Source: Roseimaritima ulvae
Lineage (GTDB): Bacteria; Planctomycetota; Planctomycetia; Pirellulales; Pirellulaceae
Length of the DNA: 64,000 nt
NCBI RefSeq assembly: GCF_008065135.1
Contig: NZ_CP042914.1
Coordinates: forward strand, 5,065,404 to 5,129,403
Direction of reading: 5' to 3'
Numbering within the stretch: position 1 is the first letter of the stretch; each line of letters starts with the position of its first letter. Both the position numbers and the translations under genes were made by a program. Below are positions 4,285 to 52,896 of this stretch, in pieces. Below the pieces are notes generated by a model. It saw nothing but the letters and a program-made list of their open reading frames with translations, ran no database searches and was not told the DNA's origin.

Positions 4285-4471
4285 GTAACGAGTTCGGTTA
4301 CGGAAGATAGGTTTGTCGAAGTCGAGCCCCAGTATAGGTAAAGGCTGATAGCAAAGGTTGGCGTCGACGTGACGTCCTCTGATCGCCGGGATTCTGGGTT
4401 AGCTCCACGCGGCCCGTTCTGCTAGTCTCGTCGTCTCCAGCATCTCCCTGCCCTTTGCCCCCCCAGTTGCC

Positions 4472-5038
4472 GTGCTGAATTCGGATCTTTCGCCGCCTGC
4501 CGAGCGGGCTCAAGGTACTCAAAGCACACCAGGCACGCGACTTCGCGATGCCGCGATGTTGTTGCCGCCGTTGGTGGTTTGTGTGATCGTCGACCAAGTC
4601 ACCAAGCAATGGGCTACGGCCACGTTGAAGCATGGAGAAACCCTGTCTTTTTGGGGCGATCGTTTTCGGCTGCAGTATGCGATGAATTCAGGCGGCTTCC
4701 TGAGTCTTGGCAGCGAGTTTTCGGAATCCGCGCGCTTCGCTCTGTTCATCGGCTTTAATCTTGTCTTGATGTGTGGCCTGGGTTGGTTTCTGTACGCGGC
4801 GCCGCGAGCCCGTCGCGGCTTTCAGTTTGGCGTGGGATTACTGCTCGCCGGCGGCATCGGCAACCTGATCGATCGCCTGACACAAAACGGGCAAGTTATC
4901 GACTTTATGAACCTGGGCATCGGCTCCTTGCGCACGGGAATTTTCAACGTGGCCGATATCGCCATTGTCGCGGGTGCCGTGCTGTTAGCCGGTTGCAGCT
5001 GGACGGCGGGCGGAACGCGCACCGACATCGCGCGATAA
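4472..5038 (+). CDS. lspA: Lipoprotein signal peptidase (signal peptidase II)
   Basis: Inner-membrane aspartic protease that cleaves prolipoprotein signal peptides after lipid attachment. The four expected hydrophobic segments are present, with the conserved VDQVTK after the first, GGIGNLIDR (first catalytic Asp) and FNVADIAI (second catalytic Asp). The length of 188 residues is normal. The longest frame uses a GTG at 4472; an ATG at 4556 just before the first membrane segment would give 160 residues, and no Shine-Dalgarno site decides between them. The lipobox proteins at 24361 and 31055 are likely clients. Confidence 0.94.
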   Translation: MLNSDLSPPAERAQGTQSTPGTRLRDAAMLLPPLVVCVIVDQVTKQWATATLKHGETLSFWGDRFRLQYAMNSGGFLSLGSEFSESARFALFIGFNLVLMCGLGWFLYAAPRARRGFQFGVGLLLAGGIGNLIDRLTQNGQVIDFMNLGIGSLRTGIFNVADIAIVAGAVLLAGCSWTAGGTRTDIAR

Positions 5039-5168
5039 CCACAGGCGTTAAACGTCATCGCGGGGCCCACACGCCCTCGCGTCCAGCGTACAATGTCTTG
5101 CACATGACGGATCCAGCACCTGCCTGGATCGCTTCTCCTGCTCTGGGATCAACGCAAGCCGCTGTCTA

Positions 5169-5681
5169 ATGCCCATGTCCACGCCTGACGAATCCGCTGA
5201 ACCACCGCAACCCAACGTCGACGCTGCTCTAGACCGCGGGGCAGCGGACATTGGCACTGGCAACGTTGGCGGTGAGAGCGACGAGGCAGCCACGAGCGAC
5301 GAAGCGATCGTGGCCACGCTGGTCGATGACCCAAGCATTCAGCAAGCTCGCACAGGAGAGGTTCGAACAGGCTCGCCCTTTGTGGTCGACCCACCGGCGG
5401 TCCGGCAGCGGGCCGCCGCAGCGCTAAAGATGCGCCGCGAATTCGAAGCCGGACTTTGGCGACTGACCGCCGCTAGCGCCGTGATTGCCGCCGGCATGCT
5501 GGTGGTGTTTGCCGCCATTGCCTTTTGGGTGTTCCAGACCGGCGCGTTGTTGATCGCCGGCCTGGGCGGAGTGATGAGCCTGCTGGGGCTGACGTCGATA
5601 TATCCCAGGTGGGCGTTCAGTTTATTGCTGATTCACACGGGATTGTTTGTCGGCACCTTCTGGCTGACCATGCGGATTTAG
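5169..5681 (+). CDS. Hypothetical membrane protein with acidic N-terminal domain
   Basis: 170 residues. The first ~95 are hydrophilic, acidic and Ala-rich, with no recognisable domain. The last ~75 hold three hydrophobic segments (ASAVIAAGMLVVFAAIAFWVF, LLIAGLGGVMSLLGL, FSLLLIHTGLFVGTFWL). Two ATG codons lie two residues apart (5169, 5175). It follows lspA by 130 bp on the same strand and ends tail-to-tail with the next gene, overlapping it by 4 bp. I do not recognise the family. Confidence 0.7.
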   Translation: MPMSTPDESAEPPQPNVDAALDRGAADIGTGNVGGESDEAATSDEAIVATLVDDPSIQQARTGEVRTGSPFVVDPPAVRQRAAAALKMRREFEAGLWRLTAASAVIAAGMLVVFAAIAFWVFQTGALLIAGLGGVMSLLGLTSIYPRWAFSLLLIHTGLFVGTFWLTMRI

Positions 5682-7138
5682 GCGTTCACCAATTCGGGCA
5701 CGGCAAAGCCTTCACGGTAGGTGCGTTTGAGCATCGCGTTGGCTGATTCCGAGCCGTCGCCGGTGAACCGTTCCGTCTTGTGGTCGTAAGTCAGCACGGT
5801 GCTGGACACCAACTCGCTGGTGGACACATCAAACGGTTTTAGCTGCTTCTCCATTTGCTCGATCAGCACCGGCCAAGCTTCCAATTGCGAACGACTGGCC
5901 AGGGCCTCATGGTCATACGACTGACCAACCTGAAAAGCGACATTGGCTAGGTTGCACCAACCGCTGCTGTGATGTCCGGTTTCCACCGGTGCATTTAACA
6001 TCGAAGCATCATTGGCCAGCACGGCATCGATAAAGTTGCGGACATGCAAGGCCACGATGCTGCCACCTTTGAAGGCACGCAAGCGATTGCCGTCGCTATC
6101 GTAGGCCTGTCCACGTCCGCGTTGGCCGGCGAAGTAACCGCCTTCGCAGACGACGACGTAGCCACTGCCAGGGTTTCGAACGCGCGGATGAATCGGGCAA
6201 TCCCAACTACCTTTGCCGGCGGGCGAAGCGTGCAGGTTGCTGAGCGCCATCAGGGTCGGGAAGGAGTCGGTTTCCAACAGGGCGTAATGCACGTTGGGCG
6301 TATTGCCGGCGTCGTTCCAAGCCACGCGTCCTCCGGCGGCGACCAGGCGCGAGGGCATGGCAGCGGAGTCCTGGTAAGCGACGTTGCGGACGTCGTCCAG
6401 GATGTGCACTCCCCAGTTGCCCATCTCGCCGTTACCGGTATTGAAGTCCCAGTGCCAGTCGTAGTGCAGGCTGTTGCGATAGATCGGTTGTTTGGCGGCC
6501 GGCCCCAACCACAGGTTGTAATCGACTTCGGCCGGCGGCGTGATCGGCGAAGCCTTGCGGCCAATCGAACCTCTTGGTCCCAACCGATTGGCTTGCACGT
6601 ATTGGATCTCGCCCAGCGCTTTGTCTTCGTGCAGGAATTTTTTGATTTCGGCTTGCATTGGATCGCTGCGTTGCTGCGTTCCAATCGCGCACACCAAGCC
6701 GCTGGACTTGGCGGCAGCCACCAGTTGCTGACCTTCCCACTGGGTGTGAGACAACGGTTTTTCCACGTACACATGTTTGCCGGCATCCAACGCCCAGATC
6801 GAGGCCAGGCAGTGCCAGTGATTGCAGGTCGCCACGACCACCACATCGACGTCGTCGTTATCGAACACCCGTCGCAGGTCGGTGACGGCTTCGGCTTTGT
6901 ATTCATTCGCCAGGCTGTGGGCGCGTCGGTTGTCGGGGTCAGCAACCATCACGATGCGGACGCCTTCGGTACCAGCAAAAGCGCCGGCCATTTCGTTGCC
7001 ACGCCCGCCGGCACCCACAATGCCCACACGCACCTCTTCCGTGGCGGCGGCAAAGGCCGGACGGACGGTTGCCGTGGCCACGGTTGCAGCGGTCGTGGTG
7101 CTCAAGAAACGCCGTCGATTAAATCGCAACGTGGACAT
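5678..7138 (-). CDS. Secreted Gfo/Idh/MocA-family oxidoreductase
   Basis: A 486-residue NAD(P)-dependent oxidoreductase with a Tat-type leader (NRRRFLST, residues 7-14, then an Ala/Thr-rich core). The Rossmann motif GAGGRG is at 42-47 and the family-typical EKP at 126-128. Members oxidise or epimerise sugars and cyclitols; exported versions are common in Planctomycetes and often serve glycan breakdown. The start at 7138 (MSTLRFNRRRF) is preferred because it places the twin-arginine motif near the N terminus. No substrate can be assigned. Confidence 0.9.
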   Translation of the reverse strand: MSTLRFNRRRFLSTTTAATVATATVRPAFAAATEEVRVGIVGAGGRGNEMAGAFAGTEGVRIVMVADPDNRRAHSLANEYKAEAVTDLRRVFDNDDVDVVVVATCNHWHCLASIWALDAGKHVYVEKPLSHTQWEGQQLVAAAKSSGLVCAIGTQQRSDPMQAEIKKFLHEDKALGEIQYVQANRLGPRGSIGRKASPITPPAEVDYNLWLGPAAKQPIYRNSLHYDWHWDFNTGNGEMGNWGVHILDDVRNVAYQDSAAMPSRLVAAGGRVAWNDAGNTPNVHYALLETDSFPTLMALSNLHASPAGKGSWDCPIHPRVRNPGSGYVVVCEGGYFAGQRGRGQAYDSDGNRLRAFKGGSIVALHVRNFIDAVLANDASMLNAPVETGHHSSGWCNLANVAFQVGQSYDHEALASRSQLEAWPVLIEQMEKQLKPFDVSTSELVSSTVLTYDHKTERFTGDGSESANAMLKRTYREGFAVPELVNA

Positions 7139-45489: not shown

Positions 45490-46110
45490 TTAATTTCTTG
45501 GATTGCTTGGATTGTCAGGATTGCTTGGATCGTTGTCGATTTCTTCCCGCAGCCGCCGCATGATCCGGCTGCGGGCGGCGTAGACGCTGCCGGTCTGTTT
45601 CCCCAATTTCTTCGCGACCTGCTCGATCGGCTGCTCTTCGACCGTCGATAGCCAAAACGCCTGCCAGGTGTCTTCGGCAAACTCCCGCTCGATGCGACGA
45701 GCGGCGGCGCGAAACCGTTCTTTTTGGTACTCACGCTGCAGCACCTCGGCCTCGTCCGAGCGATCGGCCAGCTGATCCAGCGTCCGCTGCAGGGCCGAAT
45801 CCCCGGACGCTTGTACCGCCGGTCGGCTGCGGAGCATGTTGATGGCGGCGTTGCGGGTGACCGTGTCGAGCCAGGTGCGGAATCGAGCTCGGTTGGGATC
45901 GTGCGGTCGTTTGGCGAGCGATTTCCCGACCGACACCAAGACCTGTTGAGCCACATCCAGAGCGTCGGCGTCCTGCAGACCTCGGTAACGGGCGGTGCGG
46001 TAAATCACCGGATGATACAGTCGCACGAACTCTTCCCAGGCCACCTGATCGGCGGGATCGCTGAGCCGAACCAGCAAACTTAAACGCGTCTCAGGATCAG
46101 GGAAACTCAT
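45490..46110 (-). CDS. ECF-family RNA polymerase sigma factor
   Basis: 206 residues. Region 2 is visible in EFVRLYHPVIYRTARYRGLQDADALDVAQQVLVSV and FRTWLDTVTRNAAINMLR, and region 4 in FWLSTVEEQPIEQVAKKLGKQTGSVYAARSRIMRRLREEI. It ends with a short Asn/Pro/Asp repeat (DPSNPDNPSNPRN). It redirects RNA polymerase to stress or envelope promoters. The ATG at 46110 heads a four-gene run with the ZAS-kinase, an SHD1/beta-propeller protein and a zinc-ribbon protein. It resembles the planctomycetal ECF groups known to be linked to Ser/Thr kinases. Confidence 0.9.
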   Translation of the reverse strand: MSFPDPETRLSLLVRLSDPADQVAWEEFVRLYHPVIYRTARYRGLQDADALDVAQQVLVSVGKSLAKRPHDPNRARFRTWLDTVTRNAAINMLRSRPAVQASGDSALQRTLDQLADRSDEAEVLQREYQKERFRAAARRIEREFAEDTWQAFWLSTVEEQPIEQVAKKLGKQTGSVYAARSRIMRRLREEIDNDPSNPDNPSNPRN

Positions 46111-46358
46111 ACATCAAACACAAACAGCGAAGCGCGGGGGACCATCGAATACTTTACACCAGGGGCAAGCCTCTATGCAGCGGACAAAATTATGGCGATC
46201 AAGAACCGCTCGCCGGAACCTTGCAGCTTTGCCAAGGTACCGATACGTTCAAAGCAGATTGAAATGCGTCAGTGGCCGGCCTTGGGCCAGGCCAGGGGAA
46301 GATGAAAGCGAGTCAGGCGATCTGGCCGAGTTTTGTGGGTGAACCGATGGTGGGATCG

Positions 46359-46658
46359 ATGCATGTAGTGATCAGTCAGTTTGTGGTGGCAAACGACATG
46401 GAGGAAGAAGTGCGTCAGGCCTTCCGGGATCGACCGCATCTGGTGGATGACGCCCCGGGCTTTGTCCGCATGGAGGTCGTTTGCCCGGTCGAGGAACCTG
46501 CCAAATTCTGGTTGATGACCTACTGGGAAGACGCGGAGTCTTTCCAGTCTTGGCACCGCAGCCACAAGTATCAAGACTCGCACATGGGCATTCCCAAAGG
46601 TCTAAAACTAGTGCCGGGACAGAATAAGATCTTTCAGTTCAACCACATCTGCTCATGA
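46359..46658 (+). CDS. IsdG/antibiotic-biosynthesis-monooxygenase-like protein
   Basis: 99 residues, the normal size of an ABM-fold monomer. Asn12, Trp65 and His75 (FQSWHRSHKYQDSH) reproduce the Asn/Trp/His set of IsdG-type haem-degrading monooxygenases, with the same ten-residue Trp-His spacing. It is cytoplasmic. The ATG at 46359 is chosen as the family start; longer in-frame extensions are unlikely. It overlaps the cobalamin-binding gene by 4 bp (ATGA), so the two are translationally coupled. Haem degradation versus another ABM oxidation cannot be settled from sequence. Confidence 0.8.
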   Translation: MHVVISQFVVANDMEEEVRQAFRDRPHLVDDAPGFVRMEVVCPVEEPAKFWLMTYWEDAESFQSWHRSHKYQDSHMGIPKGLKLVPGQNKIFQFNHICS

Positions 46659-47713
46659 ACGTGGCTCAGACTCTCGCTCAGACCATCACGGCCGATCAGG
46701 AGATGCTCTCCGCCCAGTTGGTGGATCGGTACTTTGAAGTGCGTCCGGAACTGAATGCTCGCTTCGGTGAGTCGGGCAAAGTGAAATGCAGGGAGGATGC
46801 GAAGTACCACTTCAGCTACCTGATTGCTGCATTGCAAACAGGAAAGCCAAGCCTATTCCTGGATTACGCGCAGTGGACCCAACAACTTCTCGTAAACGTC
46901 GGTTTGCCTCACGATGAGCTGAGACGCTACCTTGCCGAACTACGCGCCCTGCTGCTCGAACGGCTAGCAGAGCCGGCACAGCAACAGACCGCCAAAGATT
47001 TTTTGGGCCCCGCCATCGCGGCGGTCGGACATAAACCGCTGATAGTCGCTAGCCACCTCGACGGTGATTCAAGTGTCACTCGACTGGCCGTGGATTACCT
47101 TCAGCTACTGCTGCAGGGCGATCGCATGGCGGCCGTCGGCTTGGTGACCAATGCCGTCGATGAGGGATTGTCGATCAAATCCGTATACCTGGACATTTTT
47201 CAACCGGTTCAGTACGAGGTGGGTCGGCTCTGGCACCTTGGTCAGGTGAGTGTTGCACAGGAGCACTATTGTACCGCGGTCACGCAGTGGGTGATGTCGC
47301 GACTGTACCCGATGGTGTTCACCGAACACCGCAGCGACAAACGGCTGGTGGCGGCCTGCGTATCCGGCGACTTGCACGAGATCGGCCTGCGCATGGTGAC
47401 GGACCTGCTAGAGCTGGAGGGTTGGGACACCTGCTACTTGGGGGCCAGCGCTCCCCCTGCAGGTATTATTGAAACCGTGGCTAAACAGCGTTCTCAGGTG
47501 CTCGCCCTCTCGGCTACAATGGGCTTCCATCTCGGGCCCCTAACCCAAACGATCGAATTGCTCCGCCGCGATCCGGCATTAGCAAATGTGAAAGTTATCG
47601 TTGGTGGCCGACCTTTTCTCGTTGAACCCTCGCTTTATCAGGCGATCGGGGCCGATGCGATGGCAACCAATGCAGAAGAGGCGAGCGATATTGCAGAACA
47701 TTTGCTAGGTTGA
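46655..47713 (+). CDS. CarH-like cobalamin-binding photosensor without DNA-binding domain
   Basis: 352 residues. Residues ~150-352 match the light-sensing half of CarH: a four-helix B12 cap with LWHLGQVSVAQEH, an exact W-x9-E-H motif (Trp193, Glu203-His204), then the Rossmann domain with GDLHEIG, in which His241 would be the lower cobalt ligand, and further VGG near 317. In CarH this W-x9-EH motif covers adenosylcobalamin and makes it photolabile. The MerR DNA-binding domain of CarH is replaced by ~130 residues of uncharacterised helices. It overlaps the monooxygenase gene and is followed 14 bp later by a histidine kinase gene, its likely output partner. Confidence 0.88.
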   Translation: MNVAQTLAQTITADQEMLSAQLVDRYFEVRPELNARFGESGKVKCREDAKYHFSYLIAALQTGKPSLFLDYAQWTQQLLVNVGLPHDELRRYLAELRALLLERLAEPAQQQTAKDFLGPAIAAVGHKPLIVASHLDGDSSVTRLAVDYLQLLLQGDRMAAVGLVTNAVDEGLSIKSVYLDIFQPVQYEVGRLWHLGQVSVAQEHYCTAVTQWVMSRLYPMVFTEHRSDKRLVAACVSGDLHEIGLRMVTDLLELEGWDTCYLGASAPPAGIIETVAKQRSQVLALSATMGFHLGPLTQTIELLRRDPALANVKVIVGGRPFLVEPSLYQAIGADAMATNAEEASDIAEHLLG

Positions 47714-47727
47714 ATCCGGAACCGTTC

Positions 47728-49026
47728 ATGACGTCCCCACAGCGCGGTCCCAAAACGTCGCCAGGCGAGCGTGAATTCGAAGAACTGACTCGAATCACCA
47801 ACGAACTGGTTACCACGCAGCGGCAACTTTATAAGCAGAGCTGTGAGCTGCGTCGTTTGAACGAGGAAAAAAACATCGCGATCGGCATCGTCGCCCATGA
47901 TTTGCGAAATCCACTGGCCCTAATGAAGATGCAAAGCGAGCTTCTGTTGGACCAATGTGCCGGCGAATTGTCCACCGATCATCAGCAACTGCTGCAGAGC
48001 ATCAGCGAACAGGGGCGGATGATGCTGACGATCGTCAACGATCTACTAGATGCCTCGGCGATCGAGGCCGGCTCTTTCCATCTTGCCCGCGAAACGGTCG
48101 ACGTGATCCCGCTGGTCGAACACTTCGTACAGTCGCAGGCATTGTTGGCGGCTCCGAAGTCGATCTCACTGCGGTTCTTGCCCCCCCAAGGTGTGCTATT
48201 GGCTTTGCTCGATCCGGCAAAGTTCCAGCAGGTCTTAACCAACCTGATTGGCAATGCGGTCAAATTCTCTCCCGCCGAAACAGCCGTAGACATTTCGCTA
48301 GCCGATCACGGCGAGCAATTTGAAATTCGCGTTCGGGATTCGGGCCCTGGGATTCCCGACAGCCAGCTCAAGTCCTTGTGCGAGCCCTTTCAGACGGTGG
48401 GAGGAAGATCGCAGGGCGGTGAGAAGAACACGGGTTTGGGTCTGACCATCGTACGTCGAATTATCGAGAAACACGGAGGCTCCCTAAACGTCTCCAGCGA
48501 GCCCGGTGTCGGCTCGGTGTTCTCTGTCTCGATGCCAACCGGACAGCCACAGCTATCCGGCGAGGCCCCGTCTTCGCCACCGGTCGCGACGTTCGCAGCA
48601 ACCGACACTCCCCCGGACACTGCCGAGGCTCCACTCCGGGTTCTGATCGTCGACGACTATCTTCCAGCGGCAAAGATGACGGCCACGATGGTTGCTCGAG
48701 TTTGCCAAGCGGACATCGAACTTGCCAGCGACGGTGCTGCGGCGGTGGAGCGGGTTACGACGTTCGAACCCCATCTTGTCCTGCTGGATATCGAACTTCC
48801 TACAGTTAGCGGCCGTGAAGTCGCGAAACGTATTCGCGAGCACGACACCGCTCATCCTCCGCTCGTTTGCGCAGTAACTGCGCATGCTGGCGAGGAACTG
48901 GAAAAGATCGCAAGCTTAGACACGTTTGATTGCGTATCGGCAAAGCCCATTTCGCTGGCTGACCTACAATCATTTGTCGACGCAGCGAAGCGCCGGCTGA
49001 AGTCCGGCGTGATATCCAACGGTTAA
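47728..49026 (+). CDS. Soluble hybrid histidine kinase with C-terminal receiver
   Basis: 432 residues, ATG at 47728 with CCGGAA upstream; a TTG at 47710 overlapping the previous stop is less likely. After a short coiled coil comes the dimerisation helix IVAHDLRNPL (phospho-acceptor His57), then the N box NLIGNAVKF, G1 DSGPGIP and G2 TGLGLTI of the ATPase domain, and a receiver domain (LRVLIVDDY, phospho-Asp354 in LLDIELP, Lys406). It has no membrane segment and no PAS or GAF sensor, so the adjacent cobalamin-binding protein may be its sensor. The downstream target of the receiver is not evident. A 205-bp gap follows. Confidence 0.92.
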   Translation: MTSPQRGPKTSPGEREFEELTRITNELVTTQRQLYKQSCELRRLNEEKNIAIGIVAHDLRNPLALMKMQSELLLDQCAGELSTDHQQLLQSISEQGRMMLTIVNDLLDASAIEAGSFHLARETVDVIPLVEHFVQSQALLAAPKSISLRFLPPQGVLLALLDPAKFQQVLTNLIGNAVKFSPAETAVDISLADHGEQFEIRVRDSGPGIPDSQLKSLCEPFQTVGGRSQGGEKNTGLGLTIVRRIIEKHGGSLNVSSEPGVGSVFSVSMPTGQPQLSGEAPSSPPVATFAATDTPPDTAEAPLRVLIVDDYLPAAKMTATMVARVCQADIELASDGAAAVERVTTFEPHLVLLDIELPTVSGREVAKRIREHDTAHPPLVCAVTAHAGEELEKIASLDTFDCVSAKPISLADLQSFVDAAKRRLKSGVISNG

Positions 49027-49231
49027 GTCGTTCCCGACGGCCGTCTACATTCGGCGCCAAGCGTGTTGGATGATTCTCTGCCAAACCGGCGTGTGGTCGC
49101 CCAACGCTTATGGACTGTTCGACCTCCATCTGAGCGCTTTCCAGCGTCCGGCTGGCCTGGCGCGATACTTGCACGGTTGGTGAATGACAAAGCTGAGACA
49201 ACCAACACCAACCACTTGTGGAAGCGCGCAC

Positions 49232-50170
49232 ATGCTAGGATTTGGAAACTCCCCGATAGCCGAACACGAAGCAACCGGCGAGATTGATCGGGTCTACCAC
49301 GAGATACGCCAGTCGCTGCGAGTTAGCGGAGTCAACTTAGTTTTTCGAACGTGGGCCGGGCATAAAAATCTGTTGCCCGTTTTGTGGGATAGTCTGCGGC
49401 CAAATTGCGAAACACAAATTTTTGAAAGCTTGGCGGACGAGATCCGACATCAAGCTGCCGAAGCGGCCCTCTCGCTTCCTCCCATCCACCCGACCGCCGC
49501 AGCCAAGCTGGGTGAAAGCCAGTTGTTTCAGCTGAACAAAGCGTTGCAGCTATATCATTTCGTCAACCCCAAGCTACTGCTGTTTGCTTCCACCGTCAGG
49601 TTAGCGCTGGCCGGGGAACTCCCGCCCGCTGCAGATACACCTCCCACCGAATCGCTATTGCGCGTTCAACGCGGTGTTCCGGACGACATGTATCCAATGA
49701 CCATGGTCGAAGAAAAGGCGGAAGACAAAACAACGCGTGAGCTTTTTGATGACATCCAGCAAACGCTCAATCTGGATTCAATCAACAGTGACTACCGCAC
49801 CATGGCATTGTGGCCCAACTACCTCCAGGCCATGTGGAAAGAGCTCAAACCAACCATCTCCACCGCTGAATACGAATCGGCCGCCGAGCGATTGCGAGAC
49901 CGTACTCGCGCGCTAGTGCAGCGATTGCCGCTGCCGATCTCGCTATCCGCCGACGCCGTACGAGCCGCCGGTGCGAACGTCGACAAAGCCATTGAAACCA
50001 GTGAGTCTTTCGAACAGCTATTGCCGGGACTGGTCATCAACATCGCGATCTGTCTTCGTGAGCTAGTGAACGATGATCAGCTATCTTCGTCGCCATGGTC
50101 GACCACCTCGAGTGCGGGCCTGCAATCGTTTTCTTCTCTTCACGTTTCAAAACTTTCCGAAAGTGTGTAA
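49232..50170 (+). CDS. DehI-family 2-haloacid dehalogenase-like protein
   Basis: 312 residues. The protein is two similar halves: IDRVYHEIRQSLRVSGVNLV...WAGHKNLLPVLWDSLRPN and ELFDDIQQTLNLDSINSDYR...LWPNYLQAMWKELKP, the pseudodimer plan of DehI. Asp187 in SDYR lines up, from memory of the family, with the catalytic Asp of Pseudomonas DehI. That enzyme hydrolyses both enantiomers of 2-haloacids without a covalent intermediate. The ATG at 49232 with GGAAG upstream is preferred to one 48 bp earlier because it gives the family N terminus. It overlaps the next gene by one base (TAATG). The substrate is unproven. Confidence 0.83.
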   Translation: MLGFGNSPIAEHEATGEIDRVYHEIRQSLRVSGVNLVFRTWAGHKNLLPVLWDSLRPNCETQIFESLADEIRHQAAEAALSLPPIHPTAAAKLGESQLFQLNKALQLYHFVNPKLLLFASTVRLALAGELPPAADTPPTESLLRVQRGVPDDMYPMTMVEEKAEDKTTRELFDDIQQTLNLDSINSDYRTMALWPNYLQAMWKELKPTISTAEYESAAERLRDRTRALVQRLPLPISLSADAVRAAGANVDKAIETSESFEQLLPGLVINIAICLRELVNDDQLSSSPWSTTSSAGLQSFSSLHVSKLSESV

Positions 50171-51048
50171 TGAATTGGCAAGCCTATCAAGCGATGCAAC
50201 GCGTCGTCGAACTCGGCAACCGCTTTATCAGCTATGTTGATCAACCGGCAGCGACGGACACCAACGAGCAGCCCGTCGTATTGCTGCATGGGATCCCCAC
50301 GTGGGGCTTCATGTGGAAAGATCTGATTGGACCTCTGTCGCAATACCGACGTACGCTTGTCCCCGATCTGCTGGGGTTTGGCTTTTCCGATCAACGAGAC
50401 TGCTTCGACCGCTCGATCGCGGCACAGGCCGATTACATCGTAGCCTGGATGGATCAATTAGGCGTGGAGTCGTCGACATTGGTGGCCCACGATATCGGTG
50501 GGGGTGTGGCCCTGCGATTGGCGACACTCTACCCGGATCGCGTCTCACGGCTCTGTGTCCTGAACACGGTATGCTACGATTCGTGGCCGATCGAATTGAT
50601 GCTGCAATTCGGCCATCCCTGGGCAAACCGCAAAGCCTCGGCGTCCACCGCGATGACGGTCTTGGGGACGGCTCTGCGAAGCGGGTTCGCTCACTCTCCC
50701 GATCGCGACCTGTTGGACGGACTGCTGGCGCCCTACCGCACGGAGGTGGGCAAGCAATCTTTGGTTCGCAACGCCGCATCGCTCAACACCAATCAGACCA
50801 CCGAAATCACCCATTTGTTGCCACGCATTGCGGTCCCAACTCGGGTGCTCTGGGGTGAAGACGACAAGTTTCAGGAAATCCAATTCGGTAGACGGCTTGC
50901 CAACGACATCCCGGACGCCGAATTCGTTCCCATCGAAGACGCACGCCACTTCGTTATGATTGACCAACCACAAGCGATCGAGAAACAGGTTTGCGACTTC
51001 GTGCTGAAGCCGCCGACGACACGCCCCTCGCACCCGATTCTTGTCTGA
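50170..51048 (+). CDS. Alpha/beta hydrolase with Asp nucleophile, haloalkane-dehalogenase/epoxide-hydrolase-like
   Basis: 292 residues. HGIPTWGFMW (40-49) is the oxyanion-hole segment typical of haloalkane dehalogenases, VAHDIGGG places the nucleophile Asp at 108, GEDDK offers the acid near 231-232, and ARHF gives His260. Dehalogenases usually have Trp right after the nucleophile to bind halide; here it is Ile109, so epoxide hydrolysis or another reaction is equally possible. The start at 50170 overlaps the DehI-like stop by one base, indicating translational coupling. Rhodopirellula is known to encode haloalkane dehalogenases, which makes this neighbour plausible. It converges with the carbonic anhydrase gene. 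Confidence 0.85.
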   Translation: MNWQAYQAMQRVVELGNRFISYVDQPAATDTNEQPVVLLHGIPTWGFMWKDLIGPLSQYRRTLVPDLLGFGFSDQRDCFDRSIAAQADYIVAWMDQLGVESSTLVAHDIGGGVALRLATLYPDRVSRLCVLNTVCYDSWPIELMLQFGHPWANRKASASTAMTVLGTALRSGFAHSPDRDLLDGLLAPYRTEVGKQSLVRNAASLNTNQTTEITHLLPRIAVPTRVLWGEDDKFQEIQFGRRLANDIPDAEFVPIEDARHFVMIDQPQAIEKQVCDFVLKPPTTRPSHPILV

Positions 51049-52105: not shown

Positions 52106-52756
52106 TCATTGCTCAGCGGCTGTCTGATTTTGACTTTCCTCGCCGGGCGGTGCTTCATCGACCGGTTGGAGACGGATCAGGATTTCGTTGCGTCGCAGCG
52201 GTGGCGGCGTGAAGGGCGGATCGTAGCCGGCCGTTTCCACTTCGCCGGCCGCCTGCAAACCTTGCGACTTCATCCACTCTCGCAACTTGGCCTCCTGCTG
52301 CCGTGCCGACGTGGCGTCCAGGCGCCCGGAGAAACGCACCACGGCAAACCGCCCGCCGGGACGTTTTCGCAGCTTCACTTTCTCGCCGGTCGGCTCCGGG
52401 GCGCCCTCGGCGGCCACTTCCTTGGGAAGCACAAATCCCATCGAGCCGGAAGCCTCCTCGTCGCCGCCTTGCATGAACACGGGCGTCGTCATCTCGATTT
52501 TCTGCTCCGCTTGGTTGGCGCCGCTGATGTATCCAAACAACCGCATGAAGCTGCCGTCGCGGCCCTTGGCCTGCGGCTGCGAATCGGTGGCGGCCAGCAT
52601 CAGATCCGGGTAGTCGCGAACTTCAAACGCCCCGTCCGACTCCACGACCTCGTATTCGGCCGATTCGTAGGCGGCTCGGGCGGTAAACGTCCAAACAGCG
52701 GTGCCGAGAATCGCCAGCGTGACGACCACCAGGGCGGAAGTGACTCGTTTCTTCAT
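52106..52756 (-). CDS. SOUL/HBP-family haem-binding-like protein
   Basis: 216 residues from the ATG at 52756. A membrane anchor or uncleaved signal (TSALVVVTLAILGTAVWTF) is followed by the SOUL signature: YESAEYEVVESDGAFEVRDYPDLMLA, FMRLFGYISGANQAEQKIEMTTPVFM and RFSGRLD. Family members bind haem or tetrapyrrole loosely, or act as apo-proteins. Residues near the C terminus (PPFTPPPLRRNEILIRL) match the family end. It sits outside the cytoplasmic membrane. Earlier in-frame starts are rejected because they lack a signal-like context. Confidence 0.88.
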   Translation of the reverse strand: MKKRVTSALVVVTLAILGTAVWTFTARAAYESAEYEVVESDGAFEVRDYPDLMLAATDSQPQAKGRDGSFMRLFGYISGANQAEQKIEMTTPVFMQGGDEEASGSMGFVLPKEVAAEGAPEPTGEKVKLRKRPGGRFAVVRFSGRLDATSARQQEAKLREWMKSQGLQAAGEVETAGYDPPFTPPPLRRNEILIRLQPVDEAPPGEESQNQTAAEQ

Positions 52757-52896
52757 GGTTCGCTGCTCAAGACGCGTCGGAGAACAAGAGAGGAGGGCTT
52801 TAGACCGTAGGACGACGGCAAGCCCTTGACAAAGTACATGTTGCAACATATAACTAGAGGGTCGACGCGGTTGGGACGCGCGATTCATAACTCAGT

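Follow-up and report, generated by a model that had tools for sequence, protein, structure and literature searches.

What is the function of five closely spaced plus-strand genes in the planctomycete Roseimaritima ulvae (family Pirellulaceae), and do they form a single system? The genes are located at positions 46359 to 51048 of the 64,000-nucleotide stretch analyzed here (contig NZ_CP042914.1, positions 5,065,404 to 5,129,403), to which we refer as the window, and encode, in this order, a small monooxygenase of the ABM fold, a B12-binding protein, a soluble hybrid histidine kinase, a DehI-like dehalogenase, and a hydrolase. Inspection of all five open reading frames confirmed the overlaps and gaps given in the original prediction, which was derived from the DNA sequence and proposed a single unit where a CarH-like B12 protein feeds a light or cobalamin signal to the kinase and that includes hydrolytic dehalogenation and heme chemistry. 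We found that the five genes are two modules, one comprising the ABM, receptor, and kinase genes and the other the DehI and hydrolase genes. The former (46359 to 49026) probably constitutes a two-component light-sensing operon, a reading to which we assign a probability of about 0.62 and whose basis is formed by the domains, residues, gene order, gene fusions, and co-occurrence observed.

A predicted photocobilin with its globin in front

The B12 protein (46655 to 47713, +) has 352 amino acids. Pfam assigns only two B12 domains to it, namely, B12-binding_2 and B12-binding at residues 147 to 343, and the Pfam scan detected no helix-turn-helix (HTH) family. The best sequence matches in the Protein Data Bank (PDB) were the photocobilins 8j2w, 8j2x, and 8j2y. 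The model of the whole protein, based on a 15-row alignment, had a predicted local distance difference test score (pLDDT) of 93.3, and its B12 part (residues 139 to 352; 47069 to 47710), consisting of a four-helix bundle and a Rossmann domain, was closest to the photocobilin 8j2w_A among solved structures (Z 26.2, root mean square deviation of 1.9 over 208 residues), as compared to a Z of ~20 for CarH domains. The signature of light-responsive cobalamin-binding proteins is composed of GxxW, EH, GxxH, and GxxxP (PMC11796333), and the alignment showed all four elements (47222 to 47455): G190RLW, E203H204, G238DLH, and G263ASAP, the last ending with P267. These elements contain the W-x9-E-H (W193, E203, and H204) and D-x-H-x-x-G (around H241) motifs reported initially, and His241 stands at the position of the lower cobalt ligand. 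The designation CarH-like thus applies to the complete light-responsive B12 signature but not to the remainder of the protein, which has no HTH domain and begins with a phycobiliprotein-type globin.

This globin (residues 1 to 125; 46655 to 47029) is a separate domain that was overlooked in the first reading. In a phmmer search, residues 54 to 85 showed faint similarity to the photocobilin C-terminal domain. The list of structural matches of the whole model was filled by the B12 domain; the globin was predicted and searched alone. The model of the N-terminal 128 residues had a pLDDT of 95.5, and 50 of the 50 matches listed were bilin proteins (Z 14 to 16), either phycobiliproteins, photocobilin, or designed or engineered proteins of this kind, with a Z of 15.5 for the biliverdin domain of photocobilin (8j2w_B, residues 226 to 345) and of 16.3 for smURFP. 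A profile of the domain gave E values of 2.7e-8 for 8j2w and of 1.3e-6 for allophycocyanin. In the segment Cys45-Arg-Glu-Asp48 (46787 to 46798), which aligns with the CxRD of phycobiliproteins, Cys45 corresponds to their bilin-attachment cysteine, and Asp48 corresponds, in pairwise and profile alignments, to the phycobiliprotein aspartate and to Asp270 of SasPcob (numbering of PMC10979010, i.e., the chain index plus 6). The latter residue is the main biliverdin contact and holds the pyrrole rings (PMC10979010). We infer that Cys45 and Asp48 form the bilin site of the globin. As judged by sequence and model, the protein is a photocobilin with the globin placed in front, predicted to bind adenosylcobalamin (AdoCbl) and a bilin and to undergo light-driven cleavage of the Co-C bond.

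Probable pairing of the receptor with a histidine kinase

For the kinase gene (47728 to 49026, +), an ATG start at 47728 leaves a gap of 14 bp after the receptor gene; with the alternative in-frame start, the TTG at 47710, the two genes overlap. Pfam recognizes HisKA, HATPase_c, and receiver domains, which are preceded only by a short helical N terminus, in agreement with the earlier notion of a kinase devoid of a sensor domain of its own. The phospho-acceptor histidine and aspartate were read in the H-box AHDLRNP and the receiver motif LLDIELP, respectively.

The B12 region and a receiver-bearing kinase are fused into a single protein of ~800 amino acids in five planctomycete genomes (G013, G083, G123, G478, and G363), and a metagenome-assembled genome (MAG) of the Verrucomicrobiales (locus L084) encodes a B12-kinase fusion of 1,281 amino acids with PAS, kinase, receiver, and Hpt domains. 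Since the pair is fused in several genomes, the window kinase can be seen as the detached output half of the receptor. A phylogeny of 54 globin-B12 proteins, constructed without the motif columns, placed the window protein in a clade of 25 rows (support 99). By an automatic score, a kinase was fused to or adjoined the protein in 20 of these, as opposed to none of 29 rows in the sister clade. The proposal that the B12 protein feeds the kinase is supported by these fusions and by the ABM-B12-kinase order present in four phyla, and we consider it probable that a receptor of the photocobilin kind controls the adjoining kinase.

Gene order across phyla

The module of ABM, globin-B12 protein, and kinase recurs in four phyla. 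The gene order was found in Planctomycetota in the window and in genomes G032, G276, and G247 and, beyond this phylum, in MAGs of Chlorobiota (L081), Rubrivivax (L083), and Magnetospirillum (L090); in the Verrucomicrobiales MAG, an ABM gene precedes the B12-kinase fusion. In scans of contigs, a two-row alignment retrieved relatives; the single window protein retrieved none. At the Verrucomicrobiales locus (L084, 2697 to 9825), one ABM gene is common to two divergent receptor-kinase fusions, the receptors of which are near copies of each other.

The ABM subfamily linked to these receptors was detected in only 2 of 241 Pirellulaceae genomes, the window genome and G032, and in none of the three congeners examined, one of which carries a fused receptor-kinase without ABM. 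Because its spread is patchy, horizontal transfer of the sensor module is suggested. The carbonic anhydrase flanking the cluster has no close match in the three congeners, so that no empty site could be defined. In genome G143 (L158, 6850 to 8345), the ABM gene is followed by a CLED globin without the B12 part and, directly behind, by a kinase out of frame; this locus could be due to a deletion or an assembly fault and was left out of the counts. The genome of the window contains a second globin-B12 protein (L034, 8805 to 9911; G000:C1, ~58.8 kb), which lacks Cys45 and Asp48, an ABM gene, and an adjacent kinase. Furthermore, the relatives from Sorangium (L086, 5413 to 6945) and Minicystis (L088, 5455 to 6984) have an extra N-terminal stretch resembling a second, degenerate photoglobin in front of the Cys-x-x-Asp one.

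Role of the ABM protein

The first gene of the putative operon (46359 to 46658, +) encodes an IsdG/HmoB-like protein of 99 amino acids, the ABM fold of which is assigned by Pfam (56.9 bits, E 2.5e-15). Matches to NCBIfam families of the HmuQ/IsdG type were weak and below the cut-off, and the nearest PDB structures were TT1380, MhuD, and HmoB. The stop of this gene and the start of the receptor gene overlap by 4 bp (ATGA), and the two genes overlap or nearly touch across phyla, an arrangement typical of translational coupling. Characterized IsdG enzymes require an Asn-Trp-His triad for heme breakdown (PMC5557675), the positions of which are occupied by Ser6, Trp65, and His75 in the window protein. 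Among the nine photoglobin-linked loci, the histidine is kept in all and the tryptophan in seven. Other planctomycete ABM proteins have the canonical asparagine in 25 of 26 cases, have far lower scores, and are found in different gene contexts. Given the serine at the asparagine position, the linked ABM proteins are a distinct subfamily outside the IsdG definition. Heme chemistry, as initially proposed for the cluster, is plausible for the ABM protein, but the catalytic triad is altered.

Two lines of evidence connect the ABM protein to the chromophore. Cys45 and Asp48 are both present in 9 of the 9 ABM-linked receptor rows and in only 4 of the 45 others (Fisher p 3.8e-7), and in Planctomycetota alone in 4 of 4 versus 1 of 37 (p 4.9e-5); these p values ignore kinship, there are only two independent ABM/Cys pairs on supported branches, and the receptor set beyond Planctomycetota was collected partly by a pattern including Cys-x-x-Asp. 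The two independent pairs never run in the opposite direction, and one further row without ABM has the cysteine with a glutamate at the aspartate position. The other line comes from loci without ABM. A heme oxygenase (PF01126, 36.7 bits) is encoded divergently just upstream of the sensor in Telmatospirillum (L089), and a 504-amino-acid protein with a heme oxygenase domain (61.1 bits) is encoded divergently beside the B12-kinase pair in a member of the Desulfovibrionaceae (L092). The latter protein (4339 to 5853, -) has a long C-terminal tail with a weak match to the photoglobin profile (E 6.6e-4) and is possibly a heme oxygenase-globin fusion. As the same kind of sensor is thus accompanied by two unrelated enzyme types, a function in bilin supply is indicated. 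No heme oxygenase was detected in seven ABM genomes in searches of low sensitivity: the whole-genome Pfam search missed the Telmatospirillum enzyme found by hmmscan, so that its negatives weigh little, and the search with protein queries was more sensitive.

Apart from the limits of the co-occurrence statistics, several observations speak against such a function. The catalytic asparagine is a serine in all nine linked ABM proteins and a tyrosine replaces the tryptophan in two of them, so that, from these sequences, heme cleavage may be lost or altered. In addition, three loci (L086, L087, and L088) encode Cys-x-x-Asp receptors without an adjoining ABM or heme oxygenase gene. The linked proteins may form another product, use another reductant, or load the bilin instead of synthesizing it. 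We give even odds to a role of the ABM protein in bilin supply or loading. A more specific version, according to which it would be a re-tuned IsdG-type enzyme (Ser-Trp-His) making a bilin other than biliverdin IX-alpha that becomes attached to Cys45, we regard as rather doubtful; if true, the system would represent a B12/bilin two-component photoreceptor that possesses a dedicated noncanonical chromophore enzyme and has spread horizontally across phyla.

Proposed mechanism and alternative explanations

The light response, the binding of a bilin, the contact between receptor and kinase, and the activity of the ABM protein would fit together as follows. AdoCbl would be bound between the four-helix bundle and the Rossmann domain, with His241 as the lower ligand, and a bilin, made from heme by the ABM protein or loaded with its help, would occupy the N-terminal globin at Cys45 and Asp48. 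The Co-C bond would be cleaved directly by green or blue light and, via the bilin as antenna, by red light. The loss of adenosine may then cause a rearrangement of the region of Trp193 and Glu203-His204 and a change in receptor assembly, which would alter autophosphorylation of the adjacent kinase; the output would pass through the receiver domain of the kinase to a partner.

The receptor and kinase might well be a light sensor to which the ABM protein has no chromophore-related connection, acting instead on another substrate or as a small regulatory subunit, with the biliverdin of the globin derived from elsewhere or missing. This explanation is possible, although we place it below even odds. 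It would account for the serine in all linked ABM proteins and for relatives in Sorangium, Minicystis, and Azospirillum that retain the Cys-x-x-Asp globin without ABM, and AbDPcob responds to light despite poor biliverdin binding (PMC10979010). It leaves unexplained that ABM tracks the Cys-x-x-Asp globin, that its gene is translationally coupled to that of the receptor across phyla, and that two loci without ABM have a true heme oxygenase instead; the failure to detect a heme oxygenase in the seven ABM genomes points the same way, within the low sensitivity of the searches. An alternative of another kind, which we consider unlikely, is that what the B12 protein signals to the kinase is not light but the supply of cobalamin or the redox or oxygen state. 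The B12 fold by itself is no proof of photochemistry, and it is also found in AerR/AppA-type B12-binding regulators (Z 20 to 21). However, four of the four light-responsive signature elements are present, the closest structural match is a photocobilin, and a fused bilin-type globin would be pointless in a pure B12 sensor.

The idea of one five-gene system, with hydrolytic dehalogenation under the control of light or B12, concerns the genes for the DehI-type 2-haloacid dehalogenase (49232 to 50170, +) and the alpha/beta hydrolase (50170 to 51048, +). They are on the same strand as the sensor module, and only 205 bp, with no convincing terminator, separate the kinase from DehI; the terminator and promoter scan of this interval gave results no better than those of shuffled sequences (fold z -1.07). 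Gene order argues otherwise. Sampling of 99 other Pirellulaceae revealed DehI homologues in 4, each time followed by the same hydrolase, and in none of these four did the pair adjoin ABM, B12, or kinase genes; two of the genomes, G013 and G083, carry both this pair and a B12-kinase fusion but at separate places. No other ABM-B12-kinase locus contains DehI. The five-gene order was found at no other of these loci, and the original prediction had named a restriction to close relatives as a reason to abandon the idea. On this gene-order evidence, the five-gene unit, and with it the inclusion of hydrolytic dehalogenation, was rejected as very improbable. The DehI-hydrolase pair is most likely a neighbor unrelated to the light-sensing operon and not its output.

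The DehI-hydrolase pair and flanking region

The dehalogenase was identified by Pfam (DehI, 78.4 bits) and by its similarity to PDB entry 5gzy (E 5e-30). Its open reading frame reaches up to 49184, and 49232 is the best start, at which its relatives also begin. The asparagine of NPK and the aspartate of NSDY, which we take to be the active-site residues, are invariant in five homologues and 5gzy. The hydrolase (Pfam Abhydrolase_1, with HGIP and HDIGG motifs) starts at 50170 in the junction TAATG, overlapping DehI by 1 bp. In haloalkane dehalogenases, the aspartate nucleophile is followed by a halide-binding tryptophan; in HDIGG, an isoleucine follows the aspartate, and the G083 homologue has an asparagine in place of the nucleophile. 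The GC content is 55 to 58% across the cluster (window 46000 to 51000) versus 59 to 62% in the flanks. One gene past the cluster, a SOUL heme-binding protein is encoded (52106 to 52888, -; Pfam 153 bits), with no sign of linkage.

Comparison with known systems

The window receptor has the B12 photoreceptor signature in common with CarH and LitR but lacks their MerR DNA-binding domain. An HTH-B12 gene of the CarH/LitR type exists elsewhere in the same genome (L127, 4337 to 5266; G000:C1, ~4.098 Mb); its neighbors resemble an oxidoreductase gene and the short conserved genes that characterize LitR loci. The dehalogenase shares the fold and the NPK asparagine and NSDY aspartate with DehI 2-haloacid dehalogenases and is here paired with an alpha/beta hydrolase outside the sensor operon. 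Attention thus shifts from this enzyme, which is probably irrelevant to the sensor, to the small monooxygenase conserved with the receptor. The linked ABM proteins share the fold and, in most members, the triad tryptophan and histidine with IsdG, MhuD, HmoB, and HmuQ but differ in the serine replacing the asparagine. A light-signaling role of the products of IsdG-type heme breakdown has been raised as an open possibility in the study of LFO1 (PMC5557675), for which the window system provides a concrete test case. Text searches retrieved no paper linking an ABM/IsdG-type protein to such a receptor. The ABM partnership is the new element, whereas the kinase arrangement may already feature in the original description of photoglobins (Schneider et al. 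2022, cited in PMC11796333 and PMC10151467).

Bilin-type globins, comprising photoglobins and the bilin biosynthesis-associated globins (BBAG), have been linked to proteins that bind B12 and, in many cases, to heme oxygenase, and a CXQD motif was reported for photoglobins (PMC10151467); the proteins described here have CxED or CxDD, and an IsdG-like ABM protein stands in the place of heme oxygenase. The closest parallel is offered by the photocobilins SasPcob and AbDPcob, established B12/biliverdin receptors (PMC10979010), which likewise combine, in one chain, a B12-binding four-helix bundle and Rossmann domain bearing the CarH-type signature with a phycobiliprotein-like biliverdin-binding globin. 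The globin is N-terminal in the window receptor and follows the B12 domain in SasPcob, and the window receptor has a cysteine three residues before the aspartate, which SasPcob lacks. Two further differences from photocobilins are the ABM gene coupled to the receptor gene and the output, which is a separate hybrid histidine kinase rather than a diguanylate cyclase. B12-bilin photoreceptors are a recent discovery, and in the literature found, characterization has been limited to two of them, one a stand-alone protein and the other fused to a diguanylate cyclase; a receptor with a separate adjacent kinase would permit reconstitution in vitro and the construction of a red/green two-component tool.

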